Positions 1-25,620 of a stretch of DNA of 25,669 nucleotides are shown here, piece after piece. The notes under the pieces were generated by a model. The model searched no databases. It was not told where the DNA came from and saw nothing but the letters and a program-made list of their open reading frames with translations. Position 1 is the first letter of the stretch; the number at the start of each line of letters is the position of its first letter. The stretch spans positions 1 through 25,669 of the forward strand of contig CALZJV010000037.1 in the NCBI GenBank assembly GCA_945787595.1, given 5' to 3'. The position numbers were made by a program, and so were the translations under genes. The DNA is from an uncultured Desulfobacterales bacterium. GTDB lineage: Bacteria > Desulfobacterota > Desulfobacteria > Desulfobacterales > JAFDCJ01.

Positions 1-1
1 A

Positions 2-1000
2 CTCAAAGCCTTCAAAGTGCTGGGAGGCAGCTACGCGGTGGCCCGGCTGGTATGCCAAAAGCTGGGCCGTCCTTTGAGCGAGGTGCCCTATGCCCAGCTG
101 GTGAGCGATGATGTACGGGAACGCATCGGGCAAATCACTCTAACTACGGCGACCGACGGTAACCACGGTCGGGGCGTAGCCTGGGCTGCGGAGCGACTGG
201 GACAAAAGGCGGTGGTCTACATGCCCAAGGGAACCGCACCCAGCCGGGTGATCGCCATCCGCTCCCATGGCGCCACCGTGGAGGTTACCGATCTAAACTA
301 TGACGACGCCGTCCGCCTGGCCTGCAGCATGGCCGAAGAAAACGGCTGGTACGTGGTTCAGGATACGGCCTGGGAGGGATACAGCGAGGTGCCCCTATGG
401 ATCATGCAAGGGTATCTGACCATGTGTTCAGAGACGGTCGATCAGTTGCGTGCCGAAGATGCCTATCCGACCCATATCTTTGTGCAGGCCGGCGTGGGTG
501 CCCTGGCCGGGGCCGTGGTGGGCTACCTGGCCCAGGTATTTCAGGAACCGCGTACCAAGTTTATCATCATGGAACCAAACAACGCGGCCTGTATCTTCGC
601 TTCGGCCGCCGCCGGCGACGGCCGGCCCCATGCGGTCACGGGGGACCTGGACACGATCATGGTAGGCTTGGCCTGCGGGGAGCCCAACCCCCTTTCCTGG
701 GAAATTTTACGTGATATTCCCAGTGCATATGTGAGCTGCGACAACTGGGTGGCCGCCAACGGTATGCGTATCCTGGCCAATCCAATCGGCGGGGACGCTT
801 CGGTCGAGGCGGGGGAATCCGGCGCCGTGGGTATCGGTTTGATGGACCTTCTGGCAAACCATGCCGATTTTGAGGCCCTCAAGGACAGTCTAGAAATTGG
901 TCCCGATTCCACGCTGCTTTGCTTCAACACTGAAGGTGCCACCGATCCGGTTAACTACCAGGAGATCATCTGGCACGGCAACCATCCGTTTATTGGTTAA
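2..1000 (+). CDS. ygeX: 2,3-diaminopropionate ammonia-lyase, 5' end cut by window edge
   Basis: PLP-dependent fold-type II lyase that converts 2,3-diaminopropionate to pyruvate and two ammonia in the cytoplasm. The frame is open from base 2, so the N-terminus lies outside the window; about 70-75 residues are missing compared with the E. coli protein (398 aa). The GTG at 17 is only the first start-like codon and not the true start. The PLP Schiff-base lysine is the AAA at 14-16, in the context [10 protein letters not shown]. The phosphate-binding TDGNHGRG motif follows, whose Asp matches E. coli Asp120, and [10 protein letters not shown] contains the match to Asp189. Both acid residues are used for the D- and L-isomers in E. 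coli. [12 protein letters not shown] and a C-terminal NTEGATDP segment also fit. ygeY follows after 97 bp. In the purine/urate cluster this is the last carbon-releasing step. Confidence 0.95.
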
Positions 1001-1010
1001 AGAAATTGGG

Positions 1011-1038
1011 GAATTCAGGAATGAGGAATCAGAAGATA
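1011..1038. repeat. Short 7-bp-period array between ygeX and ygeY
   Basis: The gap after ygeX reads as four degenerate heptads (GAATTCA, GGAATGA, GGAATCA, GAAGATA). It is a minor member of the heptad arrays found in most gaps of the window. Confidence 0.5.
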
Positions 1039-1081: not shown

Positions 1082-1087
1082 AGGAGG
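1082..1087 (+). promoter_or_regulatory. Shine-Dalgarno site of ygeY
   Basis: AGGAGG lies 10 nt before the ATG at 1098. It decides the ygeY start: the reading frame stays open back to an ATG at 897, but that would put about 67 extra residues inside ygeX and the gap. Confidence 0.85.
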
Positions 1088-1097
1088 CGTTGAATCC

Positions 1098-2312
1098 ATG
1101 GCACAACTAAATTTTGTAAAAATTAAGGAGCTGGCCGAGAGTTACAGACCTGACATGACCCGATTTTTACGCGACATGATCCGTCTACCAAGCGAAAGCT
1201 GCCAGGAAAAAGCAGTTGTCGAGCGGATCAAAGAAGAAATGGAGGCGGTGGGATTTGATCAAGTAGAAATCGATCCCATGGGCAACGTCTTGGGTACCAT
1301 CGGAAACGGCGCGCATATAATTGCGATGGACGCTCACATAGACACCGTCGGCGTGGGCAACAAGGACAACTGGGAATTCGACCCATACGAGGGCTACGAG
1401 GACGATGAGGTGATCGGCGGCCGCGGCGCCTCAGATCAGGAGGGCGGTATGGCATCCATGGTCTACGCGGGTAAAATTATCAAGGATCTGGAACTGCAAG
1501 GCGACTACTCCCTGGTCGTGGTCGGCACCGTTCAGGAGGAAGATTGCGACGGTTTGTGCTGGCAATACATTATCAAGGAATCGGGATTGAAGCCTGAGTT
1601 CGTAGTCTCGACCGAGCCTACCGACGGCGGTATATACAGGGGCCAGCGCGGCCGCATGGAAATCAAGGTGGCGGTTAAAGGGGTCAGTGCCCATGGTTCG
1701 GCACCCGAGCGCGGTGACAATGCTATCTTCAAGATGGGACGTATCCTGGATGAACTTGAGACGCTGCACGGCCGCCTGAAAACCGACGATTTCTTAGGTA
1801 AAGGTTCTTTGACAGTTTCCGAAATATTCTACACGTCACCATCCCGCTGTGCGGTGGCGGATGGCTGCACCATCTCCATCGATCGTCGTTTGACCACTGG
1901 TGAGGACAAGGAACTCGCGCTGCAGCAAATAAGGGACCTTCCGGCTGCAAAAACCGCCAATGCTCAAGTATCCATGTACCCTTACGATAAACCCTCTTAC
2001 ACCGGTTTGGTTTATCCGACCGACTGTTACTTTCCCACTTGGGTGATTCCTGAGAACCACACGGTGACCCAATCGGCAGTGGCGACCTACAGGTCCTTGT
2101 TCGACGAGGAGCCCCGGGTGAACAAATGGACCTTTTCCACCAACGGCGTCTCCATCATGGGAATGTTTGGCATTCCTTGCGTAGGCTTTGGGCCGGGCAA
2201 GGAATCTGAGGCCCATGCACCTAACGAAAAAACATGGAAAGCCGATCTGGTGCGTTGCGCGGCCTTCTACGCCGCTTTGCCGCTCACCTACCTGGAAATT
2301 ATTGAAGATTGA
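1098..2312 (+). CDS. ygeY: YgeY, M20-family metallohydrolase (selenium-metabolism-linked type)
   Basis: Cytoplasmic two-metal hydrolase of the M20/DapE/ArgE/CPG2 group, 404 aa, which is the usual YgeY length. The five metal ligands and the catalytic acid pair are visible: His80 and Asp82 (AHIDTVG), Asp113 (GASDQEGG), Glu147-Glu148 (VQEED), Glu173 (STEPTDGG) and His373 (EAHAPNE). The dimerisation (lid) domain sits between about 180 and 295. The family is annotated as a putative selenium-metabolism hydrolase because it co-occurs with the SsnA/YgfK genes. In anaerobic purine clusters it more likely cleaves an amide or ureido bond of a ring-opened intermediate upstream of diaminopropionate; the substrate is inferred. 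The start is set by the AGGAGG site at 1082. The last codons (ATT GAA GAT TGA) lie inside a heptad array, so the C-terminal IED comes from repeat DNA. Confidence 0.94.
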
Positions 2313-2404
2313 AGATTGCAAATTGACTATTTAAGGAATTCTTTCCATTTAAAAAAGATGGAGCGAAGCGACATCCACAAATCTTCAATATTCAATCTTC
2401 AATT
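2301..2404. repeat. Inverted heptad-arm element, copy A (ygeY-arcC gap)
   Basis: The left arm at 2301-2325 is built of GAAGATT-like heptads. The right arm at 2378-2403 is its near-perfect reverse complement, with about 22 of 25 positions pairing. The core between them carries TTAAGGAATTC, an A-rich run and GGAGCGAAGCGACATCC (2360-2376). As RNA it would form a long, AU-rich hairpin. It starts inside the end of ygeY. Confidence 0.85.
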
Positions 2405-2434
2405 CTCCGCGGATCCGGCTAAGGGAGGTAGACC

Positions 2435-3385
2435 ATGAACGCCAAGCTTGTTTTTATCGCCATCGGCGGCAACTCGCTGATCAAGAGCAAAGAACTGCGA
2501 AGCGTCGAAGATCAGCATACCGCCATTCAAGAGACGGTCCGACATGTGGCCGATTTGATCGAGCACAATTATCAGGTACTGATCTCTCACGGCAACGGGC
2601 CTCAGGTGGGTTTCATCATGCGCCGTTCCGAAGTGGCCCGACGGGTAACCGGACTGCACCTCGTCCCGCTGGTCAACGTCGTGGCTGACACCCAGGGCTC
2701 CATCGGCTATCAGATTCAGCAGTCTTTGAACAATGAGTTAGCCAGCCGGAATACCGCAGGTCAGTGCGTAACGGTGGTCACCCAGGTGGTCGTGGACCGG
2801 AACGATCCCGGCTTTAAAGAACCGGCCAAACCGGTGGGTGAATTCTTCGACGCGGAGCAGTTAGCAGAAATCCGCCGGGATTATCCGGACTGGACCCTGG
2901 TCGAAGATGCGGGCCGCGGTTTTCGCCGGGTGGTGCCGTCTCCGGAACCCCGCGAGGTAATAGAAAGGCCGGTGATTGAATCGTTGCTCAACAGCGGCTA
3001 CCACGTAGTGACTGTGGGCGGCGGCGGCATTCCAGTGGTGCGAACAGACGCGGGTCTGGAGGGGGTAGATGCCGTGATCGACAAAGATCTGGCTTCAAGC
3101 CTGCTGGCCAACCAGTTGGATGCCGGTCTGCTCATCATCTCAACCTCGGTGGAGCAGGTCACTTTGAACTTCGGTAAGCCCGCTGAGAAGCCCATCAGCA
3201 AAATGACCGTTGCCGAGGCGGAGCAATACATTTCGCAGGGACACTTCGCCCCCGGCAGCATGCTGCCCAAGATTCAATCCGCCCTGCGCTTCTTAAAAAA
3301 CGGCGGTCAAGAAGTGATCATCACAGCCCCTGAATTCATCAAAGCGGCCGTGACCAGAGGCCGCGGCACCCATATTGTGCCGTAG
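2435..3385 (+). CDS. arcC: Carbamate kinase (YqeA/ArcC family)
   Basis: Amino-acid-kinase fold enzyme, 316 aa, normal for the family. It interconverts carbamoyl phosphate plus ADP with carbamate plus ATP; carbamate falls apart to CO2 and ammonia, so in catabolism it yields ATP. Visible motifs are the N-terminal IGGNSL loop (residues 10-15), GNGPQVGF (53-60) and the GGGGIPVV loop (195-202). AGGGAGG at 2422-2428 precedes the ATG. In E. coli the paralogue yqeA sits in the same yge cluster. Placed directly before ygeW, it is the expected partner of a carbamoyltransferase that makes carbamoyl phosphate. arcC is used as the generic symbol; yqeA is the positional equivalent. Confidence 0.92.
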   Translation: MNAKLVFIAIGGNSLIKSKELRSVEDQHTAIQETVRHVADLIEHNYQVLISHGNGPQVGFIMRRSEVARRVTGLHLVPLVNVVADTQGSIGYQIQQSLNNELASRNTAGQCVTVVTQVVVDRNDPGFKEPAKPVGEFFDAEQLAEIRRDYPDWTLVEDAGRGFRRVVPSPEPREVIERPVIESLLNSGYHVVTVGGGGIPVVRTDAGLEGVDAVIDKDLASSLLANQLDAGLLIISTSVEQVTLNFGKPAEKPISKMTVAEAEQYISQGHFAPGSMLPKIQSALRFLKNGGQEVIITAPEFIKAAVTRGRGTHIVP

Positions 3386-3390
3386 AAGAA

Positions 3391-3479
3391 AACAGAAATC
3401 GGAAGACAGAAGGCAGAGGACAGAGGGCAGAGGTCAGGAGGCAGATGTCGGAAGTCAGAGGACAGAAGACAGAGGGCAG
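3391..3479. repeat. Purine-rich 7-bp-period tandem array
   Basis: About twelve degenerate heptads of the GACAGAG/GGCAGAG type run head to tail directly after the carbamate kinase stop codon. Almost all pyrimidines on this strand are single C or T at fixed heptad positions. A related array lies at 18612-18656. Confidence 0.8.
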
Positions 3480-3505
3480 CCTATCCGCTAGCCTAAAAAT
3501 CAGCC

Positions 3506-3524
3506 AGTTTAATCGAAAAAGAAA
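3506..3524. repeat. 19-bp dispersed repeat, copy 1
   Basis: AGTTTAATCGAAAAAGAAA matches 6238-6256 with one mismatch. Both copies sit a short way after a gene end and before an inverted heptad-arm element. Function unknown. Confidence 0.5.
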
Positions 3525-3551
3525 TTTTGGCCTTGTGGAGTTTATAAAAAC

Positions 3552-3702
3552 CGAACGAACGACAAATGTCGAATTAAGGAATTTTTTCTATTTTATTATT
3601 TAAAAAAGCAGAGCGAAGCCTCCGGCTCGTAGGGGTTATAGCGCCTACGCCTCGGAGAGCGACATCCACAATTCGTCAATCGACAATCGTCATTCGTCAT
3701 TC
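3552..3702. repeat. Inverted heptad-arm element, copy B, with nested hairpin
   Basis: This has the same core as copy A (TTAAGGAATT, an A-rich run, GAGCGAAGC, then GACATCCAC). The right arm at 3671-3702 is ATTCGTC/AATCGAC-type heptads and the left arm at 3552-3575 is weaker. The core is split by 41 bp (3620-3660) that form their own GC-rich hairpin: CTCCG 3620-3624 pairs with CGGAG 3653-3657, and CGTAGG 3628-3633 with CCTACG 3644-3649. Together with 3391-3479 this fills the 335-bp gap; no gene is seen in it. Confidence 0.75.
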
Positions 3703-3720
3703 CCAGAGGAGTGCACCACC

Positions 3721-4917
3721 ATGGATACCGTAAAAATCAAAGCGCTCATCAATCAACTCGCGCAGCTCGATTACCACGATATGTACCTCAATGACTTTCT
3801 ACTGACGTGGCAAAAGAGTGACGATGAAGTGCGGGCCACGTTTCTGGTGGCCCAGATCCTGCGGGGTCTGCGTCAGAAAAATATCTCCAGCCGAATCTTC
3901 GACAGCGGTCTGGGCATTTCCCTGTTCCGTGACCAATCCACACGCACGCGCTTCAGCTTTGCCAGCGCCTGCAATCTGTTGGGCTTGGAAGTTCAGGATC
4001 TGGATGAAGGCAAGTCCCAGGTCGCCCATGGCGAAACTGTGCGCGAGACCGCCAATATGGTCTCTTTTATGGCCGATGTGATCGGCATTCGCGACGACAT
4101 GTACATCGGAAAGGGCAATGCCTACATGCGCGAAGTGGCCGAGGCCGTCAAACAGGGCTTCCTGGAGGGTGTCCTCGAACAGCGCCCCACCCTGGTCAAT
4201 CTGCAGTGCGACATTGACCACCCCACCCAGTCCATGTCCGACATGTTGCACCTGATCAACACCTTCGGCGGGGGTGAGAATCTCAAGGGCAAGAAGATCG
4301 CCATGACATGGGCCTACAGTCCTTCTTACGGCAAACCCCTTTCCGTGCCCCAGGGGGTTATCGGATTAATGACCCGCTTCGGCATGGAGGTGGTGCTGGC
4401 TCATCCCGCAGGGTACGAGATCATGCCCGCTGTGGAGGAGGTCGCCCGGTGCAACGCGGCCCGAAGCGGCGGCAGTTTTATCAAGACCAACTCCATGGCC
4501 GAAGCCTTTGAGGGTGCCCATATCGTTTATCCCAAGAGCTGGGCCCCCTTCGCCGCCATGGAGAAGCGTACCGACCTGTATGGTAAGGGCGACCACGACG
4601 GCATCGGCGTTTTGGAAAAAGAATTGCTTGCTCAGAACGCCGGCCACGAAGATTGGGAGTGTACCGAGAAATTGATGAAAAGGACCCACGAGACCAGCGC
4701 TCTGTACATGCACTGTCTGCCGGCCGACATCACGGGCGTGAGCTGTGCCCAGGGCGAGGTGGAAGCCAGCGTATTCGACCGTTACCGGGTGCCCATGTAC
4801 TTAGAGGCCAGCTATAAGCCTTACATTATTGCGGCCATGATTCTGCTGAGCAAGGTCAAGACGCCGGCGGACAATCTGAGTGATCTTCTTGAGGCCGGTA
4901 TTCCTCGTATGCGTTAG
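3721..4917 (+). CDS. ygeW: YgeW, aspartate/ornithine-carbamoyltransferase-family protein
   Basis: Cytoplasmic transcarbamylase-fold protein, 398 aa (E. coli YgeW is about 396). The carbamoyl-phosphate signature STRTR is at residues 73-77 and HCLPADITG starts at His331. The segments between them (GISLFRDQ, DLDEGKSQVAHGETVRETANM, DIDHPTQSM, TWAYSPSYGKPLSVPQG) are diagnostic of YgeW rather than of ornithine or aspartate carbamoyltransferase. The acceptor is not established from sequence. Gene context suggests phosphorolysis of a carbamoylated intermediate of purine breakdown, possibly a carbamoylated diaminopropionate, feeding carbamate kinase. AGAGGAG at 3705-3711 supports the ATG at 3721. The gene follows arcC but is separated by 335 bp of repeats. 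Confidence 0.95.
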   Translation: MDTVKIKALINQLAQLDYHDMYLNDFLLTWQKSDDEVRATFLVAQILRGLRQKNISSRIFDSGLGISLFRDQSTRTRFSFASACNLLGLEVQDLDEGKSQVAHGETVRETANMVSFMADVIGIRDDMYIGKGNAYMREVAEAVKQGFLEGVLEQRPTLVNLQCDIDHPTQSMSDMLHLINTFGGGENLKGKKIAMTWAYSPSYGKPLSVPQGVIGLMTRFGMEVVLAHPAGYEIMPAVEEVARCNAARSGGSFIKTNSMAEAFEGAHIVYPKSWAPFAAMEKRTDLYGKGDHDGIGVLEKELLAQNAGHEDWECTEKLMKRTHETSALYMHCLPADITGVSCAQGEVEASVFDRYRVPMYLEASYKPYIIAAMILLSKVKTPADNLSDLLEAGIPRMR

Positions 4918-5186: not shown

Positions 5187-6230
5187 ATGTTCAGGAAAGT
5201 ATCTATCGTATTTATTTTAGTAGCAAGCCTGTTGGTCTTTGCAACTGCACTGCCTGTTGCCGCCAAGGTGATCAAATTGGCCCATTTGAATCCCCAAAAC
5301 CCCTTTGATATCGCCACCGCGGCGGTCTCGGCAGTATTTAAAAATGAGGTGGAAGCCCGAACGGGCGGCGAGATCAAAGTCGAAATTTATCCGAGCGGCA
5401 CCCTGGGAAATGAACGTGAAACCATGGAGCAGGTTAAAGCCGGCATCACTCAAAGCTACATCGCCTCCGTCGGCGGTATCGCGCCGTTTTATTCCCTGAT
5501 TGACATTACCAGTATGCCATTTGCCTACAGCTCCTATGAAATCGGCTGTACACTCTACGACGGCCCCTTCGGGCAGGCACTGGCGTATGACATTCGAAAT
5601 AAAACCGGCATACGCGTCTTGGGCTTCATTCCCCAGGGATTTTTCCAATTTACCAATTCCAAACACCCGATCAAAACACCCGCAGATATGAAAGGGCTGA
5701 AAATGCGGACGATGAATAATCCCTTGCACATGGAATTTATGAATTCCTTGGGAGCGGCCGCCACGCCTGTGGCCTGGGCCGAAATCTACACCGCTCTTCA
5801 AACGGGTGTTGTCGATGGGCAACATAATCCGATCACGGTTATCAATTTAGGGAAAATCTTTGAAGTCCAAAGGTACCTGACCCTTTCGAACCACATGGCC
5901 GGCTTGTATGTGTGGGTCATTAACGACCGGTGGTTCAATGCCCTCCAACCTGAAGAGAAAACGGCTTTGCAGGGAGCTGCTGATGCAGCCGTGATCGCAG
6001 GCCGGGGAATTGACCGGTTGGTTACCGCAACCGAAAAGGGTTTGCCGGCTTTGGCCGCTAAAATGGAAATATATACCGCAACTCCTGAAGAGTTGGAAAG
6101 ATTTAGAGAAATCGCAATTCCGGCGGCAAAAAAGTTCTTCGCGCAAACCCTTGGCCAAGAAGGAACACAGTGGGTCGAGAAATATTTAAACGCCGTAGAG
6201 GAAGCAAAAAAAGCGTCAATGTCAAGATGA
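5187..6230 (+). CDS. dctP: TRAP transporter substrate-binding protein (DctP family)
   Basis: Periplasmic solute receptor, 347 aa. A signal peptide covers residues 1-26: a Lys/Arg start, a hydrophobic stretch VFILVASLLVFA, and a cleavage site after PVAA. The mature part has family hallmarks: TGGEIKVEIYPSGTLG near 53-68, GLKMRTMNNP with the carboxylate-clamping Arg174, and AEIYTALQTGVVDGQ near 194-208. The family binds mostly anionic organic acids and hands them to the DctQM membrane pair. AAGGAGGA at 5173-5180 sets the start. This gene sits inside the purine cluster, where E. coli has no TRAP system, so the ligand may be a purine or an acidic intermediate such as a ureido acid. That is an inference; the sequence does not show the ligand. 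Confidence 0.93.
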   Translation: MFRKVSIVFILVASLLVFATALPVAAKVIKLAHLNPQNPFDIATAAVSAVFKNEVEARTGGEIKVEIYPSGTLGNERETMEQVKAGITQSYIASVGGIAPFYSLIDITSMPFAYSSYEIGCTLYDGPFGQALAYDIRNKTGIRVLGFIPQGFFQFTNSKHPIKTPADMKGLKMRTMNNPLHMEFMNSLGAAATPVAWAEIYTALQTGVVDGQHNPITVINLGKIFEVQRYLTLSNHMAGLYVWVINDRWFNALQPEEKTALQGAADAAVIAGRGIDRLVTATEKGLPALAAKMEIYTATPEELERFREIAIPAAKKFFAQTLGQEGTQWVEKYLNAVEEAKKASMSR

Positions 6231-6616
<386 letters not shown>

Positions 6617-7096
6617 ATGCAAACTCGATCAATCGGCTTATTTGCTCTCAAACTGAGTTTGTTTATAGAACGGCTTGCAGCCTATCCTTGTATTGCTGCA
6701 ACCGGCGCCATGACGGTGGTAGTGCTCCTGGGAGTATTGTTTCGCTATGTCTTGCAGTCGCCGCTTTCCTGGTCCGAGGAAGTCGCCCGCTATCTCATGA
6801 TCTGGGCGGCTTCCCTGGCGCTCCCACCTTCGGCTCAAAAATATGCGGCGGTTCTAGTCAATTTAGCGGTGTTATGGTTTCTATGGATCTTAACCAAATT
6901 TGGCTATGATATGGCGCTGGAAGGCCAAAGCCAGCTTTCCCCTGTCCTGGCCAAGTACAGAATTAACATGATGTGGTCGCTTTCAGCGATCCCGGTAGCC
7001 GGCGCGTTGGCAATAATCCAAACCGTCTTGCAGATAGTGATTGATCTTTTCAGAAGAAAAGAAGACCTTGATATCAAAGGTATGGTGGACATCTGA
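6617..7096 (+). CDS. dctQ: TRAP transporter small membrane subunit (DctQ family)
   Basis: Four-helix inner-membrane subunit, 159 aa from the chosen start. Hydrophobic segments lie near 26-46, 55-72, 78-95 and 118-143. The family signature SWSEEVARYL is at 51-60. The frame is open further back to a GTG at 6563, which would add 18 residues with no hydrophobic or family feature. I prefer the ATG at 6617, although its ribosome site (CAGG near 6602) is weak. The stop overlaps the dctM start by one base (TGATG), as expected of coupled translation. The segment after the signature (ALPPSAQKYAAVLVNL) departs from the usual Gly/Ala/Arg/His pattern, so the loop may be divergent. Confidence 0.88.
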   Translation: MQTRSIGLFALKLSLFIERLAAYPCIAATGAMTVVVLLGVLFRYVLQSPLSWSEEVARYLMIWAASLALPPSAQKYAAVLVNLAVLWFLWILTKFGYDMALEGQSQLSPVLAKYRINMMWSLSAIPVAGALAIIQTVLQIVIDLFRRKEDLDIKGMVDI

Positions 7097-16255: not shown

Positions 16256-18544
16256 ATGGCAGTCGGCAAAGCAGTGCAAAGAGTGGATGGCGTGGCCAAA
16301 GTCACCGGCAAGGCCCGTTATACGGATGACTTCTCCATGCCCGGTATGCGCGTGGCCAAGTTCCTGAGGAGTTCCATCGCCCACGGCCGGGTGATTCGTA
16401 TCGATACCGGCCAAGCCCGGGGGCTGCCGGGAGTGGACGGGGTTTTCACCTACGAAGACATCCCCAAAAAGATATTCGCCACAGCCGGGCATCCATTTTC
16501 TTTGGATCCGGGCCATACCGACGTGGCCGACCGGCGGCTTTTAACCGATCATATTCGCTACCAGGGCGATGAGATTGCGGTGGTGGTGGCCGAAAACGAA
16601 CTGACCGCCCAAAAGGCGCTGGCCCTCATCGAACTGGAATATGAGTCCTACCGGCCCTTGGTGCGCATGGACGATGTCTTGGCCGAAGATGCACCCGAAA
16701 TCCATAAAAGGACCCGAAACATCGTCAAGGAGCATGCCTATACGGCCGGCGGCGACTGGGAGCAGGCCAAGGAGGAATCGGATCACCTGATCGAAGGCTG
16801 CTATGAAACCCAGGTAATGCAGCACTGCCACCTGGAGAACCACACGGCTTACGCCTATATGAACGATCTGGAGCACATCGTCATCGTGTCGTCTACCCAG
16901 ATTCCGCATATCGTGCGGCGCATCGTGGGTGAAGCCCTGGAACTGCCCTTAAGCCGGATCCGCGTCATCAAACCTTTCGTAGGGGGCGGATTCGGCAACA
17001 AGCAGGACGCCGTGCTGGAACCCATGGTGGCGTTTCTGACACTGAAGCTGGGCGGTGTGCCGGTCAAGTTGAGACTGGACCGCGAAGAGTGTATGATCGG
17101 CACCCGGGTGCGCCATCCCTTCCGGGTAAAATTGCAGGTGGGTCTGCAAAAGGACGGCACCGTGAAATTGATCAACCTCGACGCGCTATCCAATACCGGC
17201 GCCTACGCTTCTCACGGGCACTCCATCGCCGCGGCCGCCGCCGCCAAGGCGCATTATATGTATCCGCGGGCGGTCTATCGCTGTCACGCCCGCACGATTT
17301 ACGGTAACTTCCCGGCGGCCGGCGCCATGCGGGGGTACGGCTCGCCCCAGATGACCTTTGCGGTCGACTGCGTCATGGAAGATGCCGCGCGCACCCTGAA
17401 CATGGATTCCGTGGAATTTCGGCTCAAGAATGCGGTCAAGCCGGGCGACATGAACCAGATCGGTAAGCGGCCCATACTGACGGCCGGGCTGATGGAATGC
17501 ATTGAAAAAGGGAAACAGCTGATCGGCTGGGAAAAAAAACGTGCCGAATGGCCCCAATCCCAAAACGGACCGCTTCGGCGTGGCCTGGGCGTGGCCTGTT
17601 TCAGTTACCTCTCCGGGACCTATCCGGTCTGTGTAGAGGTGGCCAGCGCCGCTCTCACTTTGAACCAGGATGGTTCGGTGCATCTGCGGGTGGGGGCCAC
17701 CGAGATCGGCCAGGGTTCGGATACGGCCTTTGCCCAGATGGCGGCTGAAACCCTGGGAATACCATTTACCAAGGTGCACCTGGTCTCCACCCAGGATACC
17801 GACGTCACCCCCTTTGACACCGGTGCCTATGCCTCACGCCAAACCTACGTTGGCGGCCAGGCGGTGATGCGCACCGCCCAACAACTCAAGGAAAAAATCC
17901 TGGACTATGTCGGTATCATCACGGGGATGAATCCCCCGGATCTCGACATCCTGGATGGAAATATCGTGGTCGCCCGGACACCCAAGACAGCCGTAATGAG
18001 CCTGGAGAACGTCGCCATGGACGCTTATTACGATAAAAACCGCGGCGGCCAGCTCACGGCTGAGGTCAGCTACAAGACGCGCACCAACGCGCCCTCCTTC
18101 GGGTGCACCTACGTGGATCTGGAAGTGGATGTCCCCATGTGCAAGGTCAAGATTAACGAGATCTACAACGTGCATGACTGCGGGGTGGTCATCAACCCCT
18201 TAAACGCCGAAGGGCAGGTGCACGGCGGCATGGCCATGGGCATCGGCGCCGGTCTCTTCGAAGCGCTCATGATTGATCCCGACTCCGGGCGAATCTACAA
18301 TAACAACATGTTGGACTACAAAGTACCGACCATCATGGACATCCCCGATCTGGGCATGGCTTTCGTGGAGACCCGGGAGCCCACACATCCGTATGGTAGC
18401 AAGTCCCTGGGTGAGCCACCGGTGCTGTCGCCCGCTCCGGCCATCCGTAATGCGATCTTGGATGCCACCGGTGTGGCCATCAACGAACTGCCCCTCAACC
18501 CCAAAACCCTGTTCAAGCATTTCAAGGAGGCCGGGTTGATTTAG
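16256..18544 (+). CDS. xdhA: Xanthine dehydrogenase, molybdopterin-binding subunit
   Basis: Molybdopterin subunit of a three-part xanthine dehydrogenase, 762 aa (E. coli XdhA about 752), with close resemblance throughout. Visible sites are GGGFGNKQD with Phe246, GAMRGYG with Arg359, EIGQG with Gln486, QDTDVTPFDTGAYASRQ and the catalytic base Glu720 in SKSLGEPP. It catalyses hydroxylation of hypoxanthine to xanthine and xanthine to urate, or the reverse under reducing conditions, passing electrons through XdhC to the FAD of XdhB. The ATG at 16256 has only a weak upstream TTGGAA, but the N-terminus (AVGKAVQRVDGVAKVTGKAR) is typical. The distance to xdhB is 216 bp, long for an operon, and is filled with repeats. 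Confidence 0.95.
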   Translation: MAVGKAVQRVDGVAKVTGKARYTDDFSMPGMRVAKFLRSSIAHGRVIRIDTGQARGLPGVDGVFTYEDIPKKIFATAGHPFSLDPGHTDVADRRLLTDHIRYQGDEIAVVVAENELTAQKALALIELEYESYRPLVRMDDVLAEDAPEIHKRTRNIVKEHAYTAGGDWEQAKEESDHLIEGCYETQVMQHCHLENHTAYAYMNDLEHIVIVSSTQIPHIVRRIVGEALELPLSRIRVIKPFVGGGFGNKQDAVLEPMVAFLTLKLGGVPVKLRLDREECMIGTRVRHPFRVKLQVGLQKDGTVKLINLDALSNTGAYASHGHSIAAAAAAKAHYMYPRAVYRCHARTIYGNFPAAGAMRGYGSPQMTFAVDCVMEDAARTLNMDSVEFRLKNAVKPGDMNQIGKRPILTAGLMECIEKGKQLIGWEKKRAEWPQSQNGPLRRGLGVACFSYLSGTYPVCVEVASAALTLNQDGSVHLRVGATEIGQGSDTAFAQMAAETLGIPFTKVHLVSTQDTDVTPFDTGAYASRQTYVGGQAVMRTAQQLKEKILDYVGIITGMNPPDLDILDGNIVVARTPKTAVMSLENVAMDAYYDKNRGGQLTAEVSYKTRTNAPSFGCTYVDLEVDVPMCKVKINEIYNVHDCGVVINPLNAEGQVHGGMAMGIGAGLFEALMIDPDSGRIYNNNMLDYKVPTIMDIPDLGMAFVETREPTHPYGSKSLGEPPVLSPAPAIRNAILDATGVAINELPLNPKTLFKHFKEAGLI

Positions 18545-18760: not shown

Positions 18761-19636
18761 ATGTTTGATCTAAACAGTTATCACAAAGCAAGTACGGTTA
18801 ATGAAGCCATCGCGCTTCTGGCGCAGAATCCCCAAGCAATCCCCATTGCCGGCGGAACAGACGTGCTGGTCCGCTTGCATCAACGGCATCCGGACTACCG
18901 CCATCTGGTCGATATTCACGACGTGGCGGAGCTGAAAAGCATCTCTATAGAACCCGATGGGTCCATCGTCATCGGATCCGGGGCCACTTTCACCGACCTA
19001 ATGGATGCCAAAGCCATCACCACCCATATTCCGGTCCTGGCCGAGGGGGCATCCTGGGTGGGAGGTCAGCAGGTGCGTAATATGGCCACCGTGGGCGGCA
19101 ATATTAGCAATGGCGCCCCCAGTGCAGACAGCGCCGCGCCCCTGCTGGTCCTCAACGCCGTCGTGGTACTGAAGGGGCCTCAAGGCATCCGCCAATTGCC
19201 TTTGCATGAGTTTTACCAGGGACCCAGCCGGGTGGACTTGCAACAGGCTGAAATCATGACCGCATTGCGAATCGCCCCGGACGACTACCAATGCTGGTTC
19301 GCCAGCTATTACAAGTACGCCATGCGCGACGCTATGGACATCGCCACCATTGGCTGCGCGGTGGCCTGCAAGCTGGAGGGCAAGCGGGTTTCCAGATTAC
19401 GCATGGCCTACACGGTGGCGGGTCCCACCCCCCTGCGTTGCTGGAAGACGGAGAAAAAGGCAAGGGGTGCGGTTGCGGATCAGGCCCTGTTGCAGCTCGT
19501 CAGTGCTTCAGTGCTGGCTGATCTCCGGCCGCGGGAGTCCTGGCGATCGCCCAAGGCTTTCCGTGAGCAGATCATCAAGACCCTGGCGGAACGGGTGTTA
19601 CAAAAAACCCTTAATCAAGGTGGAATATGCTTATGA
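18761..19636 (+). CDS. xdhB: Xanthine dehydrogenase, FAD-binding subunit
   Basis: FAD subunit of the XdhABC complex, 291 aa (E. coli XdhB about 292). The flavin-binding segments are IPIAGGTDVLVRLH (27-40) and the NMATVGGNISNGAPSADSAA stretch near 106-125. The segments SYHKASTVNEAIALL and FKYAMRDAMDIATIGC-like YKYAMRDAMDIATIG (near 185-200) also match XdhB. It takes electrons from the [2Fe-2S] subunit and passes them to NAD or another acceptor. The ATG at 18761 has a modest CAGG upstream. The stop overlaps the xdhC start in an ATGA arrangement (19633-19636), showing translational coupling. Confidence 0.95.
   Translation: MFDLNSYHKASTVNEAIALLAQNPQAIPIAGGTDVLVRLHQRHPDYRHLVDIHDVAELKSISIEPDGSIVIGSGATFTDLMDAKAITTHIPVLAEGASWVGGQQVRNMATVGGNISNGAPSADSAAPLLVLNAVVVLKGPQGIRQLPLHEFYQGPSRVDLQQAEIMTALRIAPDDYQCWFASYYKYAMRDAMDIATIGCAVACKLEGKRVSRLRMAYTVAGPTPLRCWKTEKKARGAVADQALLQLVSASVLADLRPRESWRSPKAFREQIIKTLAERVLQKTLNQGGICL
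19617..19623 (+). promoter_or_regulatory. Shine-Dalgarno site of xdhC, inside xdhB
   Basis: AAGGTGG ends 9 nt before the ATG at 19633 but only 3 nt before the ATG at 19627, so 19633 (or the adjacent ATG at 19636) is the more likely start. Confidence 0.6.
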
Positions 19637-20148
19637 TGAACCGTAATATATCCTTTACGATCAACGCTAAACCCACGACCCTGACGGTGGACGTGCGGCA
19701 GTCCCTGCTCGAGGTGCTGCGGGAGCATGGCTACACCAGCGTCAAAGAAGGCTGCGGGGTCGGAGAATGCGGCGCCTGCACCGTGCTGGTGGATGATGTC
19801 CCGCTGGATTCATGCCTGTATCTGGCAATTTGGGTCGACGGCCGCAGCGTCCGCACCGTCGAGGGCGAAACCATGCAAGGCCAGCTCTCAGAGGTGCAGC
19901 AAGCCTATCTGGACACGGGCGCCGTGCAATGCGGTTTCTGCACGCCGGGCCTGATCATGACCTCTACGGCCTTCGTGGAAAAGTACAAGGGCAAGGAAAA
20001 GGTCTCCCGTACGGAGATCAGGCGCGCCCATGCCGGCAACCTGTGCCGCTGCACCGGCTACGAGGGCATCATCCGGGCGGTGGAACAATGTTTGACAGTC
20101 GAAGAAGACGAGGAGCCCGACAAAGGTCTGGCATGTGAAATCAAATAG
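19633..20148 (+). CDS. xdhC: Xanthine dehydrogenase, [2Fe-2S] subunit
   Basis: Electron-transfer subunit with two [2Fe-2S] clusters, 171 aa from the chosen start (E. coli XdhC about 159). The first site is Cys41, Cys46, Cys49 and Cys61 (GCGVGECGACTV), with the usual four-residue spacing between the first two. The second is Cys100, Cys103, Cys138 and Cys140 (VQCGFCTPG, LCRCTGY). The C-terminal tail (EEDEEPDKGLACEIK) is a little longer and more acidic than in E. coli. It overlaps xdhB by 4 bp. This gene is the iron-sulfur subunit and should not be confused with the XdhC-type cofactor-insertion chaperone of other bacteria, which is not in this window. Confidence 0.95.
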   Translation: MMNRNISFTINAKPTTLTVDVRQSLLEVLREHGYTSVKEGCGVGECGACTVLVDDVPLDSCLYLAIWVDGRSVRTVEGETMQGQLSEVQQAYLDTGAVQCGFCTPGLIMTSTAFVEKYKGKEKVSRTEIRRAHAGNLCRCTGYEGIIRAVEQCLTVEEDEEPDKGLACEIK

Positions 20149-20350: not shown

Positions 20351-21736
20351 ATGAACGAAAATACAATGGATGTTGACCGTGAAGCGGAAGAGGATGTCTT
20401 CGATCTCATCTACCAACTCGAGGACAATCCCCCTGTCAAGGAAGGAATGTTCGCAGCCCTTCAGCACCTTTTGGCAATTATTGTCGGAATTATTACCCCA
20501 ACCCTGATTATTGGAGGCGTCCTGGGCTTGGGCAGCGAGATTCCATATCTGATAAGTATGGCTCTGTTTGTTTCAGGTGTGGCCACATTCATCCAGGTAA
20601 AACGGATCGGACCGGTAGGCTCCGGTATTTTGAGCATCCAGGGAACCAGTTTTGCTTTCCTGGGGGCCATATTGACGGCCGGATTTTTGGTTAAAAATCA
20701 GGGCGGCGGCCCCGATGAGATTTTGTCAACGATCTTTGGTATATGTTTCTTTGGCGCCTTTATTGAGATGATCCTCAGCCGTTTCCTGCAACACCTGAGA
20801 AAGATAATTACACCGGTGGTTACCGGAACGGTTGTGACCCTCATCGGACTTAGTTTGGTCAAGGTGGGAATCATGGATATGGCCGGCGGCAAATGGCTGC
20901 TGGACAACAAACCGGATCTGTTTGGCAGCGCGCAGAACCTTTTTCTGGCGTTTCTTGTGCTGGTTATCGTAATTGTCTTGACCAGCAGCAAAAATCAATT
21001 TCTGAGAATGGGCTCCATCGTGATCGGATTGATCGTCGGGTACATCATTGCCGCGTTTATGGGTAAGGTCAATTTTAGCGCATTGCAGGGCTTGCCCCTG
21101 ATAAATATCCCCATCCCGTTTAAATATGGTTTCAGCTTTAGTCTAACCGCCTTCATCCCGGTTGCGTTTATCTACCTGATCACAACCATCGAATCGACGG
21201 GAGACCTAACGGCCACATCGATGGTATCCGGCCAACCGATCACAGGGGACCTATACATGAGGAGGATCAAGGGCGGCGTCTTGGGAGACGGTGTCAATTC
21301 CGCTATCGCCGCCATGCTCAATACGTTCCCCAATACGACCTTCAGTCAAAACAACGGTGTGATCCAGCTTACCGGCATTGCCAGTCGTTATGTCGGAATG
21401 TATCTGGCCGGTTTCCTGGTTCTACTAGGCTTGTTTCCGGTCATCGGAGCGTTTTTCCGTTCCTTACCGAGCCCCGTGCTCGGGGGGGCGACCATTGTCA
21501 TGTTCGGGACGGTCGGCGCGGCAGGTATCAGGATCATCGCTTCCAGTGAGATAGACAGACGAGATATGATTATTATGGCGGTTGCCTTCGGTCTGGGATT
21601 CGGAGTGGCCTATGTGCCGGAGTTTCTCAATAAGGCGCCCAAGGCCATCCAGCAGATTTTCGGATCGGCGGTGACTACCGGCGGGATTTCGGCACTGCTG
21701 CTGAATACGGTTTTACCGGGTCGCAAAGAGAAGTGA
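20351..21736 (+). CDS. NCS2-family xanthine/urate permease
   Basis: Inner-membrane purine:proton symporter of the NCS2 (nucleobase-ascorbate) family, 461 aa, about 14 membrane spans. TM1 carries QHLLA (His39). Glu281 (TTIESTGD), Asp313 (VLGDGVNS) and the signature QNNGVIQLTG (from Gln333) keep the exact spacing of E. coli XanQ residues Glu272, Asp304 and Gln324. The ASRYVG ending of the signature marks the xanthine/urate branch rather than the uracil one. Ser100 in IQGTSF falls where XanQ has Asn93 and UacT has a Thr (from memory), so xanthine versus urate cannot be settled by sequence. In E. coli xanQ also adjoins the xdhD cluster. This gene is the obvious purine entry route for the island. 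Confidence 0.92.
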   Translation: MNENTMDVDREAEEDVFDLIYQLEDNPPVKEGMFAALQHLLAIIVGIITPTLIIGGVLGLGSEIPYLISMALFVSGVATFIQVKRIGPVGSGILSIQGTSFAFLGAILTAGFLVKNQGGGPDEILSTIFGICFFGAFIEMILSRFLQHLRKIITPVVTGTVVTLIGLSLVKVGIMDMAGGKWLLDNKPDLFGSAQNLFLAFLVLVIVIVLTSSKNQFLRMGSIVIGLIVGYIIAAFMGKVNFSALQGLPLINIPIPFKYGFSFSLTAFIPVAFIYLITTIESTGDLTATSMVSGQPITGDLYMRRIKGGVLGDGVNSAIAAMLNTFPNTTFSQNNGVIQLTGIASRYVGMYLAGFLVLLGLFPVIGAFFRSLPSPVLGGATIVMFGTVGAAGIRIIASSEIDRRDMIIMAVAFGLGFGVAYVPEFLNKAPKAIQQIFGSAVTTGGISALLLNTVLPGRKEK

Positions 21737-21751
21737 TGTCCAATGCAACTT

Positions 21752-21826: not shown

Positions 21827-21850
21827 GTTTCAAAAAAGGGGGACCATTTA

Positions 21851-22672
21851 ATGATTAAGGAATTTTTTAAACCGCAAACCATCGCCGAAGCGGTATCCCT
21901 GAAAGATAAGTATAGGGATGAGGCGGTATTTATGGCCGGCGGTACGGACGTGAATTGCAGGGATGTAACCGCTGCGGTTGAAAAGGTCATTGGTATCGAA
22001 CAGTTGAAGCTTAGAAAGATATCAAAGACAGATGAAGCGCTGTTAATCGGCGCCGGCGTTACGATTCAGGAACTAATTGATTCACCCAAGATTCCGGATC
22101 AGCTGACGATTGCCGCCGGGCATTTTGTGAACCGCAATATCAGAAACATTGCTACCATCGGCGGTAATATCGCCTCTAATCATACCACCTCCAACTTGAT
22201 ACCGATTCTTGTTGCTCTGGATGCCGAATTGAAGCTGGCCGGCTCAGAATCTTCGGTGTCCGTTTATGATTATATTACACAGGAAATGAGCCGTCTTATC
22301 GAAAGTATTACGATTTCATCGAATAACTTAAAGAAACCCTATGGCTTACGGAGATTTTCTCATACGGCCAATGATATCTCAATTATAGTGGCGGCCGTCA
22401 CGTTCGATATCCGGAATGAAATCATTTTTAACGTCAGAGTCGCCGTCGGCGGTGTCAGCAAACACGTGGTGCGCTTGAAGGAGTTGGAAAGCAAATTGGA
22501 AGGAAATAAGCTGCCGGCGCGCACGGAAATTGAAGAGATGGTGAGAAAGGCGGTAACCCCGCTTAAGGATATCCGCGGCGGGGTCCGGTTTAAGAAATAC
22601 CTGGCGGGGATTTTGGTAAGTGATTGCATTTATAGTGCCCAAACCGGAACAAAAATGACGATTGACGAATGA
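21851..22672 (+). CDS. ygfM: YgfM, FAD-binding subunit partner of XdhD
   Basis: FAD subunit of the molybdenum hydroxylase family (CO-dehydrogenase flavoprotein fold), 273 aa (E. coli YgfM about 259). The N-terminal segment IKEFFKPQTIAEAVSLKDKY and the flavin-binding MAGGTDVN (28-35) and NIATIGGNIASNHTTSNLIP (about 98-117) segments are visible; LRRFSHTANDIS matches the region after the FAD loop. It should pass electrons between the [2Fe-2S] clusters of XdhD and an outside partner, perhaps YgfK. AAGGGGGA sets the start. The C-terminal MTIDE and the stop codon are encoded by a GAATGAC-type heptad array, which makes the protein slightly longer than usual. This gene and xdhD look lower in GC than xdhABC. 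Confidence 0.93.
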   Translation: MIKEFFKPQTIAEAVSLKDKYRDEAVFMAGGTDVNCRDVTAAVEKVIGIEQLKLRKISKTDEALLIGAGVTIQELIDSPKIPDQLTIAAGHFVNRNIRNIATIGGNIASNHTTSNLIPILVALDAELKLAGSESSVSVYDYITQEMSRLIESITISSNNLKKPYGLRRFSHTANDISIIVAAVTFDIRNEIIFNVRVAVGGVSKHVVRLKELESKLEGNKLPARTEIEEMVRKAVTPLKDIRGGVRFKKYLAGILVSDCIYSAQTGTKMTIDE

Positions 22673-22731
22673 CGAATGGCGGAGCGAAGCGACCTCCACA
22701 ATTCTTCATTCGTCATTCTTCATTAGTCATT
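22654..22731. repeat. Inverted heptad-arm element, copy K (ygfM-xdhD gap)
   Basis: Compact and clear copy. The left arm at 22654-22678 (AATGACG-type heptads) and the right arm at 22707-22731 pair at about 22 of 25 positions around the core GGCGGAGCGAAGCGACCTCC (22678-22697). The left arm overlaps the ygfM stop codon. The arm sequence differs from copy A while the core is nearly the same. Confidence 0.88.
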
Positions 22732-22755
22732 TAAAAAAGGGGGCCGGAGTAAAAC

Positions 22756-25620
22756 ATGAAAATAAACGTAACCCTAAATGGAGTGCCAAAAACGATATTC
22801 ACGGAACCGGGTGAGAATGTCAGACACCTGCTGGCGCGCGAAGGCATCGTCTCCCTGCGAAACGGTTGCGACGCTCAGGGTGTCTGCGGAGCGTGTGCAG
22901 TTATCCTTAACGGTAAGGTGGTAAATTCCTGTTTGCTGGTGGCGCCGCAAATTGACGGCAAAGAAATTACGACCGTCGATTCACTGGCAACCGGCAGGGA
23001 GCTTTCACCGGTTCAGTCGGCCATGGTCGCTGCGGGGATTGTCCAGTGCGGTTATTGTACCCCGTCGATGGAATTGGCCATAGAGGATTTGCTGAAGCGC
23101 GTAGAAAATCCCACCCGTGGACAAGTGCAAGATGCCCTATCCGGAAACCTTTGCCGATGTACCGGTTATGAACAGATATTTACGGCCGTAGAAATCGCTA
23201 AAGAACGGTTGAAAGAGCCTGGCTATCGGCAACGGGTGGCGCCCGATTTCAGGGAGGATTTGCGCATCGTCGGCAAGGCACAACTTAAAGTAGACGGCCC
23301 TAAACTGGCGCGCGGCGAGAAGGCCTTTGTTGAGGATATGGTCGAACCCGGGTCGTGTTATCTGAAAATGCTGAGAAGCCCTCATGCCCATGCCTATATC
23401 AGCAATATTGACGTTACCCAAGCTGAGAAAATACCGGGCGTGGTCACCATTTTAACCTATAAGAACTGCCCGGAAATTTATTATACCCAGGCCGGCCAGG
23501 GATTTCCGGAGCCTTCGCCGTATGACAGAAAATTAATGGGACGTAAGGTATTACATGTAGGGGATAGAGTCGCGGCCGTCGTGGCTGAATCGCCTGAGAT
23601 CGCAGAAGAGGCCGTTAAGAAAATCCAAGTTGAATATGACATATTAAAACCGGTGTTAACCATCGACGACGCCATGGCGCCAGGCGCGCCGATTGTCCGT
23701 AATGCCGAAATAGAATACGTTCACAGCGCTCCTCAAGACCTTGATAATTCAAATATAGACCCCCGTGAAGGGAAAATTATTTATCGTTTCCCCATCGGGG
23801 CAGACCCGCGTAAGAATCTGGCTGCCAGTGCGGTGGGCGGCATCGGTGACGTTCATAAAGGATTTGAGGAAGCCGACGTCATTCTGGAAAGTGAGTATGA
23901 AACCACTCAGGTTCACTGTACGCCCTTGGAACCGCATGTCGTTTATACCAGAATGGATGGTGACCGGCTGATTATCCATGCGTCGACGCAGACACCCTGG
24001 TGTATCAGAAGAACGGTTGCACGCGCCCTTGAAATAAGTGAAAACAAAATCAGAGTCATTAAAGAACGTGTCGGCGGCGGATTTGGCTCCAAGCAGGACG
24101 TGCTTTTGGAGGAGGTTGCGGCCTATCTGACATGGGCCACCGGCCGGTCGATATTATTCCGATATACGCGTGAAGAAGATTTTATCGCTTCGAGCAGCCG
24201 GCATCCGCTGAAGATAAAGGTAAAATTAGGTGCCCGCCAAAATGGCCGCTTAACAGCCATATATATGGACGTAAAAGCCAATACCGGACCGTACGGCAAC
24301 CACTGTTTAACCGTTCCCGTAAATGCCGTCTCAAAGTCCATGCCGTTGTTTTTATGCGACAATGTCGGATTCGAGGTGAAATCATATTATACGAATATAC
24401 CCCCGACAGGCGCATACCAGGGCTATGGAGCACCGCAAGGCTCCTATGCCCTCCAAACAGCCATGGCGGAATTGGCCGCAAAACTGGGAATCGATCAGCT
24501 GGAATTGATTGAAAAAAACAGGGTCCGTCAAGGCGTCATGCTCGAAATTCTCAAATGTCTTGGGGAGGGACGCGAAGGCAAACCGGAGCGTGTTGCCAGC
24601 TGCGGGTTGGGACCGGCATTAAGAAAAGGTGCCAAGCTGATTCACTGGGGTCGAAAAAAAGAAAGTGATGATCCTGATATAAAAATCGGCCAGGGCGTGG
24701 TGATCGTGCAGCAGGGTTCGGGATTGCCGGGTCTTGATTCGGCCAGCGCCGTGCTCAGGATGCTCGGTGACGGAACATTTACCTTACTCAGCGGCGGCGC
24801 TGATTTGGGTACCGGTTTGGATACGGTGGCGGTAAAAGTGGCGGCTGAATGTCTGTGCACGGATATGAGCAACATCGCAATTATTTCGGGTGATACCGAT
24901 GCAACGCCATTTGATACCGGCGCTTATGCTTCCAGCGGCACCTTTTTTTCCGGTAATGCCGCCTTGGAAGCAGCCAAGCTCATGAAAGAAAAGATCCTTG
25001 AGGTCGCGGCTCAAATGTTGAAAGAAGATAAACAAGATTTGCAAATCCTGTGTCCCGGAATAGTAAAAGGTAAAAAGGGCGCCATCACCTATCAAAAGAT
25101 TGAAACATTTTCAGAAAAAGGCACCGGCGGAGGCCAACTGGTCGCGTCGGCCAGTTTTACGACCGATGATTCAGCGTTTCCCTATGGTGCCCATTTCTGT
25201 CAGGTGGCCGTCAATACCCGCACAGGGGAGGTCAAGATTCAAAAATATTACGCATTGCAGGACTGCGGTACGCCCATAAACCCGGAATTGGCCCTAGGAC
25301 AGATACACGGCGGTGTATTAAAAGCAATTGGTCACTCATTGTACGAAGAAATGATTTTAGATGAGACCGGCAAGTGTTTAAATACCAGTCTGAAGGATTA
25401 TAAAGTACCGATGATCCATGATCTGCCGCAAGATTTCCGGGCCGAGTTGGTATTTACCGATGATCCTTTCGGACCCTTCGGCGGCAAGTCAGTCGGAGAA
25501 ATCAGCACGAACGGTGCCGCTCCGGTGATTGCCATCGCAATCCACGATGCGATCGGTATATGGATCAGAAATTGGCCGTTCACACCGGAGAAAATTCTCA
25601 AAGCCATCGGGAAGATTTAG
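22756..25620 (+). CDS. xdhD: XdhD, fused [2Fe-2S]/molybdopterin hydroxylase (putative selenate reductase molybdenum subunit)
   Basis: Xanthine-oxidase-family protein, 954 aa (E. coli XdhD 956), with iron-sulfur and molybdopterin parts fused. [2Fe-2S] ligands are all present: Cys38, Cys44, Cys47, Cys59 and Cys98, Cys101, Cys133, Cys135. The molybdopterin part has GGGFGSKQD (439-447) and the catalytic Glu915 in GGKSVGE. Two usual active-site residues are changed: GAYQGYG has Gln555 where xanthine dehydrogenases have Arg, and GADLGTG has Thr686 where they have Gln. The reaction may therefore not be standard purine hydroxylation. The family is labelled putative selenate reductase by linkage only; clusters for anaerobic purine or urate use carry it. 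It follows ygfM by 83 bp, and GGAG at 22746-22749 supports the ATG. FAD should come from YgfM. Confidence 0.94.
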   Translation: MKINVTLNGVPKTIFTEPGENVRHLLAREGIVSLRNGCDAQGVCGACAVILNGKVVNSCLLVAPQIDGKEITTVDSLATGRELSPVQSAMVAAGIVQCGYCTPSMELAIEDLLKRVENPTRGQVQDALSGNLCRCTGYEQIFTAVEIAKERLKEPGYRQRVAPDFREDLRIVGKAQLKVDGPKLARGEKAFVEDMVEPGSCYLKMLRSPHAHAYISNIDVTQAEKIPGVVTILTYKNCPEIYYTQAGQGFPEPSPYDRKLMGRKVLHVGDRVAAVVAESPEIAEEAVKKIQVEYDILKPVLTIDDAMAPGAPIVRNAEIEYVHSAPQDLDNSNIDPREGKIIYRFPIGADPRKNLAASAVGGIGDVHKGFEEADVILESEYETTQVHCTPLEPHVVYTRMDGDRLIIHASTQTPWCIRRTVARALEISENKIRVIKERVGGGFGSKQDVLLEEVAAYLTWATGRSILFRYTREEDFIASSSRHPLKIKVKLGARQNGRLTAIYMDVKANTGPYGNHCLTVPVNAVSKSMPLFLCDNVGFEVKSYYTNIPPTGAYQGYGAPQGSYALQTAMAELAAKLGIDQLELIEKNRVRQGVMLEILKCLGEGREGKPERVASCGLGPALRKGAKLIHWGRKKESDDPDIKIGQGVVIVQQGSGLPGLDSASAVLRMLGDGTFTLLSGGADLGTGLDTVAVKVAAECLCTDMSNIAIISGDTDATPFDTGAYASSGTFFSGNAALEAAKLMKEKILEVAAQMLKEDKQDLQILCPGIVKGKKGAITYQKIETFSEKGTGGGQLVASASFTTDDSAFPYGAHFCQVAVNTRTGEVKIQKYYALQDCGTPINPELALGQIHGGVLKAIGHSLYEEMILDETGKCLNTSLKDYKVPMIHDLPQDFRAELVFTDDPFGPFGGKSVGEISTNGAAPVIAIAIHDAIGIWIRNWPFTPEKILKAIGKI

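Follow-up and report, generated by a model that had tools for sequence, protein, structure and literature searches.

A 25,669-nucleotide stretch of DNA from an uncultured Desulfobacterales bacterium (contig CALZJV010000037.1), hereafter the window, very probably carries a Desulfobacterota version of the reductive (anaerobic) pathway of urate degradation, and a mostly complete one. An earlier sequence-only reading of this DNA had seen in it a purine/urate catabolic island with three molybdenum hydroxylases. Both the family scans and the closest relatives support these points and a source in the Desulfobacterota. The same reading had described several steps between urate and diaminopropionate as biochemically unclear. 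Their chemistry was published in 2025 (PMC12507026, with a commentary in PMC12990295), the order of ureido cleavage excepted. In PMC12507026, enzymes of E. coli and C. difficile were assayed: XdhD-YgfM reduces urate to 2,8-dioxopurine (yanthine), YgfK acting together with SsnA forms ureidomethyl-hydantoin plus some 5-ureido-dihydrouracil, HyuA produces 2,3-diureidopropionate, the ureido groups are removed by YgeW (or UacY) and YgeY, and YgeX releases pyruvate. According to PMC12990295, two points are still open: in which order the ureido groups are cleaved, and which donor serves the reductase that lacks flavin adenine dinucleotide (FAD). The assays settle most of the formerly unclear steps, and the genes of the window match all of them but that of HyuA. 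It is a variant of the pathway described in 2025, with an SsnA of a distinct clade and three molybdenum hydroxylases that may divide the labour among them.

Our reading starts from gene content, conserved signature residues and conserved neighbourhoods, all of which are observed; each reaction is assigned by analogy with the E. coli and C. difficile experiments reported in PMC12507026. Xanthine would be imported by a XanQ-like permease, (hypo)xanthine would be oxidised to urate by XdhABC, and XdhD-YgfM would use NAD(P)H to remove the 6-oxo group of urate, yielding 2,8-dioxopurine. The ring of this compound would then be reduced by YgfK and hydrolysed by a divergent SsnA to ureidomethyl-hydantoin, which a hydantoinase encoded elsewhere would open. 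One ureido group might be converted to carbamoyl phosphate and ATP via YgeW and carbamate kinase and the other removed by YgeY, after which YgeX would split diaminopropionate into pyruvate and ammonia. The supply of the hydantoinase from elsewhere, the role of a selenium-type xanthine dehydrogenase (XDH) and the substrate of a tripartite ATP-independent periplasmic (TRAP) transporter are proposals of the present analysis.

The 16 genes of the window, all on the + strand, were identified from long open reading frames (ORFs) and NCBIfam and Pfam profile scans. They are listed in order, with scores in bits followed by the model cut-off:

2..1000, +: ygeX, 2,3-diaminopropionate ammonia-lyase, 5' end beyond the window (NF006058 485.9 vs 276; 50% to E. 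coli YgeX residues 73-394)
1098..2312, +: ygeY, M20-family hydrolase, putative ureido group cleavage to diaminopropionate (TIGR03526 690.6 vs 321.5; 72% to E. coli)
2435..3385, +: carbamate kinase, arcC/yqeA type (NF009007 436.5 vs 266; 44% to E. coli YqeA)
3721..4917, +: ygeW, knotted carbamoyltransferase, putative transfer of a ureido group to carbamoyl phosphate (TIGR03316 743.9 vs 500; 64% to E. coli)
5187..6230, +: TRAP solute-binding protein DctP (NCBIfam DctP 198.3 vs 175.05)
6563..7096, +: TRAP small permease DctQ (Pfam only, PF04290 69.5 vs 28.3)
7096..8421, +: TRAP large permease DctM (TIGR00786 412.9 vs 268.45)
8593..11163, +: selenium-type XDH, fused iron-sulfur and molybdenum domains, ATG at 8593 (TIGR03311 923.5 vs 830.45)
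11370..12647, +: ssnA, divergent clade, amidohydrolase, expected opener of the reduced pyrimidine ring (top NCBIfam matches are SsnA models, below cut-off; 32% to E. coli SsnA)
12760..16059, +: ygfK, flavin and iron-sulfur reductase, expected dearomatiser of 2,8-dioxopurine (TIGR03315 937.8 vs 835.3; 37% to E. coli, Cys-rich stretches kept)
16256..18544, +: xdhA, molybdenum subunit of a three-subunit XDH (NF043082 1187.4 vs 780; 56% to E. coli XdhA)
18761..19636, +: xdhB, FAD subunit (NF043083 385.1 vs 310)
19627..20148, +: xdhC, iron-sulfur subunit (NF043084 224.8 vs 217)
20351..21736, +: NCS2 purine permease, XanQ-like, pbuX model (TIGR03173 440.2 vs 414.15; 48.5% to E. coli XanQ, 31.6% to UacT)
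21851..22672, +: ygfM, FAD subunit for XdhD (TIGR03312 179.3, below 241.5; FAD_binding_5 and CO_deh_flav_C; 35% to E. coli YgfM)
22756..25620, +: xdhD, iron-sulfur/molybdenum subunit of the putative urate reductase, urate to 2,8-dioxopurine (TIGR03313 1292.4 vs 1101.9; 55% to E. coli XdhD)

Every gene named by the sequence-only reading was thus recovered on the + strand and in the order that it gave, most of them above the NCBIfam cut-off. Among the members of the pathway, XdhD with an adjacent YgfM (below cut-off), YgfK, YgeW, carbamate kinase, YgeY and YgeX are present, whereas SsnA is missed by its curated models (TIGR03314 and NF005540) and HyuA is missing from the cluster. The window edge cuts ygeX, which compared with E. 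coli YgeX has lost about 72 residues at the N-terminus; it falls below the cut-off of TIGR03528 (505.9 vs 532.25) while exceeding that of NF006058. The ATG of ygeY at 1098 is preceded by aggagg. Neither a tRNA nor an Rfam match at the gathering threshold was found in the window. NCBIfam and Pfam gave none of the 16 genes a name from xanthinase-type purine fermentation, no direct search for xanthinase having been made.

The three molybdenum hydroxylases differ at the positions that we take to be E802, R880 and E1261 of the bovine enzyme. In the alignment, XdhA has Q, R and E at these positions and XdhD has Q, Q and E, while the selenium-type XDH has E, R and E in the window and 18 relatives, one relative lacking the last position. 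Both Gln residues of XdhD, one of them replacing the substrate-binding Arg found at the R880 position in xanthine dehydrogenases, are invariant in 124 of 124 XdhD homologues, a sample of the closest 120 plus four that leaves distant XdhDs outside. Equally invariant is the Glu at the E. coli 606 position (residue 604 of XdhD in the window), which PMC12507026 discusses as E. coli XdhD Glu606. We hypothesise that loss of the Arg would let urate present its C6 to molybdenum; the difference at this one position, Arg in xanthine dehydrogenases and Gln in XdhD, offers a one-residue test of what directs the enzyme to C6.

The selenium-type XDH belongs by score to TIGR03311, the selenium-dependent molybdenum hydroxylase family. 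In E. faecalis, EF2570 presumably has xanthine dehydrogenase activity. Since the only Pfam domains of the selenium-type XDH of the window are Fer2_2, Ald_Xan_dh_C and MoCoBD_1/2, with no FAD domain found, it probably uses another electron carrier. Its letter at E. coli position 606 is alignment-dependent: one alignment shows a gap, the other Glu. It is a candidate for a second urate/xanthine enzyme, and with it a second candidate for the first step. It is therefore conceivable, if rather doubtful, that in this lineage the selenium-type XDH makes 2,8-dioxopurine from urate, with XdhD-YgfM acting on another purine or kept as a spare with a different electron donor. Among the best 80 YgfK loci (of at least 591 matched stretches, many loci being short), the divergent SsnA occurs at 45% or more in 17, and the selenium-type XDH adjoins it in 13 of these, the misses including contig ends. 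It is also the sole molybdenum hydroxylase on the stretch in seven of the nine Bacteroidota and Krumholzibacteriota loci that carry it with the divergent SsnA, and for this reason it may be the urate reductase there. Moreover, 20 stretches from 17 genomes of the order carry no XdhD, no YgfM and no TRAP genes, and a missing FAD domain is a trait shared with C. difficile XdhD as described in PMC12507026. Arguing the other way, urate reduction has been demonstrated for the XdhD family, and the model matched by the selenium-type enzyme carries the name xanthine dehydrogenase. Its conserved Glu and Arg at the E802 and R880 positions, kept in the window and the 18 relatives, are the arrangement of enzymes oxidising C8/C2. 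Reduction of urate by XdhD-YgfM is the assignment that we prefer.

Another distinct trait of the window is its SsnA, which scores below both SsnA cut-offs (TIGR03314 337.0 vs 455.5; NF005540 365.5 vs 444). Nine further members of its clade fail both models as well (308.7-338.5 and 343.2-382.3, respectively), making ten of ten scored with that of the window, whereas E. coli SsnA passes both (737.9 and 709.6). In a tree of 63 amidohydrolases, the clade comprises 29 rows with a support of 100/100 from Desulfobacterota (one record being titled Proteobacteria), Krumholzibacteriota and Bacteroidota; E. coli SsnA lies outside it on a long branch, its place being unsure (93/79). An HHH metal motif was considered as a mark of the divergent SsnA and rejected, as it also occurs in two SsnA rows outside the clade and in 8-oxoguanine deaminase-like rows. 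The SsnA family IPR017700 presumably rests on TIGR03314. The published survey was built on IPR017700 and names Pseudomonadota, Bacillota, Chloroflexota, Actinomycetota, Spirochaetota and Elusimicrobiota; its main text contains no word beginning with 'Desulf' or 'Bacteroid'. Because the divergent SsnA misses both NCBIfam cut-offs, an SsnA-based survey may have overlooked clusters that contain it.

The window had also been called self-contained, a description that fails because it lacks HyuA, which opens the second ring, and YqeB, a protein of selenium maturation: no hyuA, yqeB, yqeC or mocA was found among its long ORFs. Its nearest full-length relative, locus L124 of the Desulfobacterales genome G105, has both in the cluster, with hyuA between ssnA and ygfK and yqeB after ygfK. 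In the window and in genomes G001, G021, G019 and G171, ssnA is followed directly by ygfK, and hyuA is present on five of the 20 stretches from the order. YqeB (TIGR03309) exceeds its cut-off in six of nine kin genomes. No close homologue of L124 HyuA was found in six near-kin genomes (G001, G021, G109, G015, G019 and G171); five of them encode a homologue at 40-42%, and that of G171 reaches only 29%. The G001 homologue passes the dihydropyrimidinase model (528.6 vs 393.25), as does L124 HyuA itself (497.9), and its neighbours, PreA and a protein like GltD, are those of pyrimidine breakdown. We infer that such a dihydropyrimidinase of the kin could stand in for HyuA.

In the order at large, surveyed over 389 genomes with YgfK counted at E 1e-100 or better and the selenium-type XDH and XdhD counted over their cut-offs, YgfK occurs in 30 genomes, the selenium-type XDH in 25 (23 of them with YgfK) and XdhD in four (all with YgfK). 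Complete or near-complete clusters occur in metagenome-assembled genomes (MAGs) of Desulfobacterota, Bacteroidota and Krumholzibacteriota. The best 80 YgfK loci hold no DctP or DctM and no full-length XdhD, with XdhD-like pieces in L026, L040, L058, L067, L069 and L075. Several observations count against a urate pathway at this locus. Besides the missing hyuA, both SsnA and YgfM score below their curated cut-offs. The structural model of YgfK is poor (mean pLDDT 60, pTM 0.41), its NfnL-type matches lie at a root-mean-square deviation of about 7 Å, and profile comparison with PreA (hhalign) gave one weak iron-sulfur stretch and nothing useful. Three fragmented genomes, G015, G380 and G138, carry an incomplete XdhD at 86-93% and gave no YgfK hit that reached E 1e-100, and G380 and G138 also yielded no YgeW orthologue; G015 does carry a ygeX-ygeY-arcC-ygeW block at 89-91%. 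Finally, kinship among the compared genomes makes the co-occurrence p-values too small.

Among the matches listed, metagenomes and Desulfobacterales MAGs supply the nearest proteins, which reach 93% for YgfK, 95% for SsnA and 92% for XdhD; G015, G171, G019 and G001 are the nearest kin genomes. That this may be a non-gut version of the pathway is suggested by the kin being Desulfobacterales MAGs. L124 shares with the window, in the same order, ygeX (67%), ygeY (82%), arcC (73%), ygeW (79%), the selenium-type XDH (75%), ssnA (69%), ygfK (70%) and xdhA (75%), but it lacks TRAP genes and xdhD. The G105 cluster is also flanked by a YheO-like PAS/HTH regulator upstream (L124:1124-1798) and a phage integrase downstream (L125:1386-2621). 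G001 (Desulfobacterales MO_140.B15) carries ygeY-ygeW-dctPQM-selenium-type XDH (86/83/86/78/95/80%) and ssnA-ygfK-xdhABC-NCS2; it differs in that the cluster lies on two contigs (C200 and C29), with a permease-like ORF (521 residues) and guaD upstream and no xdhD above cut-off.

It is improbable that the window joins modules that form no single functional unit, whether because an E. coli-type XdhD module was combined with a selenium-type cluster in a mosaic or because of an assembly artefact. Such an origin would fit the separate contigs that hold XdhD-YgfM in G007, G387, G008 and G355, as well as G109, in which ygeY, arcC, ygeW and the selenium-type XDH are 85-88% alike to those of the window and ssnA and ygfK 61%. 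Yet the junctions recur in independent assemblies: ygeX-ygeY-arcC-ygeW in G015 (whose xdhD, at 93%, lies on a different contig), ygeW-TRAP-selenium-type XDH in G001, selenium-type XDH-ssnA-ygfK in G171 and G019, and ssnA-ygfK-xdhABC-NCS2 in G001. Only NCS2-ygfM-xdhD is unmatched in the compared contigs. Separately, the jumps in identity along the locus, seen in G109 (L130 against window 1084-15784) and in G171 (L177; selenium-type XDH 90%, ssnA 78%, ygfK 90%), hint that segments with ssnA-ygfK have recombined. A selenate reductase system, as in the older name 'putative selenate reductase' given to YgfK and XdhD by NCBIfam and JGI and in the use of YgfK as a selenium-cycling marker in sediment metagenome papers (PMC8857189 and PMC12218205), is very hard to credit and was set aside, since the neighbours are purine and ureido enzymes and the E. 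coli enzymes act on urate and 2,8-dioxopurine (PMC12507026).

The TRAP genes for DctP, DctQ and DctM are all present, at 5187-8421, with ygeW on one side and the selenium-type XDH on the other. Among the 389 genomes of the order, a close DctP occurs in G001 only (about 86-87%; next best 47%), again between these two genes; ygeW adjoins the selenium-type XDH without TRAP genes in G021, G109 and G105. Arg174 of DctP is invariant in 11 DctP rows, and such an Arg binds the carboxylate in TRAP receptors. Naming the ligand from a structural model failed, since the model is middling (pLDDT 70.4) and the top-scoring solved chains are within 1 Z of one another (4ngu at 27.1, ectoine binders at 26.7, and others); we take 4ngu and 4n8g to have been solved with D-Ala-D-Ala. 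A part of the transporter in purine uptake would be speculative. The NCS2 permease resembles XanQ, a xanthine carrier, more than UacT, a urate carrier.

Other features of the window and its relatives were recorded. Gaps between the genes hold degenerate, 7-base-periodic and partly palindromic repeats, with units like ATTGAAG and arms around GGAGCGAAGCGA; they include 2313-2434, 3386-3720, 4918-5186, 6231-6562, 8422-8592, 16060-16255, 18545-18760 and 21737-21850. The lag-7 self-match exceeds all 500 shuffles in seven of 13 gaps and all but one or two shuffles in two more, and related copies occur in the kin loci L155 and L177. In relatives without a good ygeX, a cysteine-synthase-like pyridoxal phosphate protein near ygeY or ygfK (L133:1733-3199, L140:5285-6751, L138:4995-6626 and ORFs of 489-494 residues in L127, L128 and L136; three of these ORFs scanned) may replace YgeX. 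An amidohydrolase follows ygfK at L140:16879-18240, with similar ORFs in L128, L132, L133, L135-L137 and L141; the single one scanned scores above the cut-off for 8-oxoguanine deaminase (579.7 vs 532), an activity that would supply urate from 8-oxoguanine. A protein of 521 residues that matches no Pfam family (L152:7660-9222, L172:1983-3545 and L174:1620-3182, copies 53% alike) adjoins guaD/ygeY in G001 and lies downstream of xdhD in G015 and G138; by eye, it looks like a purine-type permease.

Taken further, and only tentatively, this lineage might run a distinct branch of the pathway, in which the FAD-less selenium-type molybdenum hydroxylase and the divergent SsnA would be the ancestral first module, NADH-linked XdhD-YgfM would be an addition, a second urate reductase that serves a different electron supply, and the TRAP transporter would import a ureido acid or a related carboxylate intermediate. 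If so, the pathway would go far back among anaerobes outside the gut and would not be a gut adaptation. Whether the gut pathway is ancient and was co-opted later, or arose as a recent adaptation to the gut, is a question raised in PMC12990295, which inclines to the second answer. The tree of the 80 YgfK loci, which spans 17 phylum groups with E. coli on a long branch, and the clusters in Desulfobacterota, Bacteroidota and Krumholzibacteriota MAGs bear on that question. A literature search of open-licence papers found no account of the pathway in sulfate reducers or sediments. Our results also suggest that YgfK, when used as a selenium-cycling marker in sediments, often reports purine breakdown instead.

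Two known systems are closest to the window. The loci of Enterococcus faecalis and other carriers of selenium-dependent molybdenum hydroxylases (Haft and Self 2008, PMC2276186) have in common with it the families of EF_2570-type XDH, YgeW, YgeY, YgeX and carbamate kinase; unlike them, the window is without selD and yqeB and additionally carries XdhABC and XdhD-YgfM. The uricolytic cluster of E. coli K-12 (L001) reads xdhABC-ygeWXY-hyuA-yqeA-yqeBC-mocA-ygfK-ssnA-ygfM-xdhD-xanQ. The window resembles it in XdhD (55%), YgfM (35%), YgfK (37%), SsnA (32%), YgeW (64%), YgeY (72%), YgeX (50%), carbamate kinase (44%), XdhABC (56/47/58%) and XanQ (49%). In contrast to E. coli K-12, it is without hyuA, yqeB, yqeC, mocA, guaD, uacT and ygfT, follows another gene order, adds the selenium-type XDH and the TRAP system, and has an SsnA of another clade.

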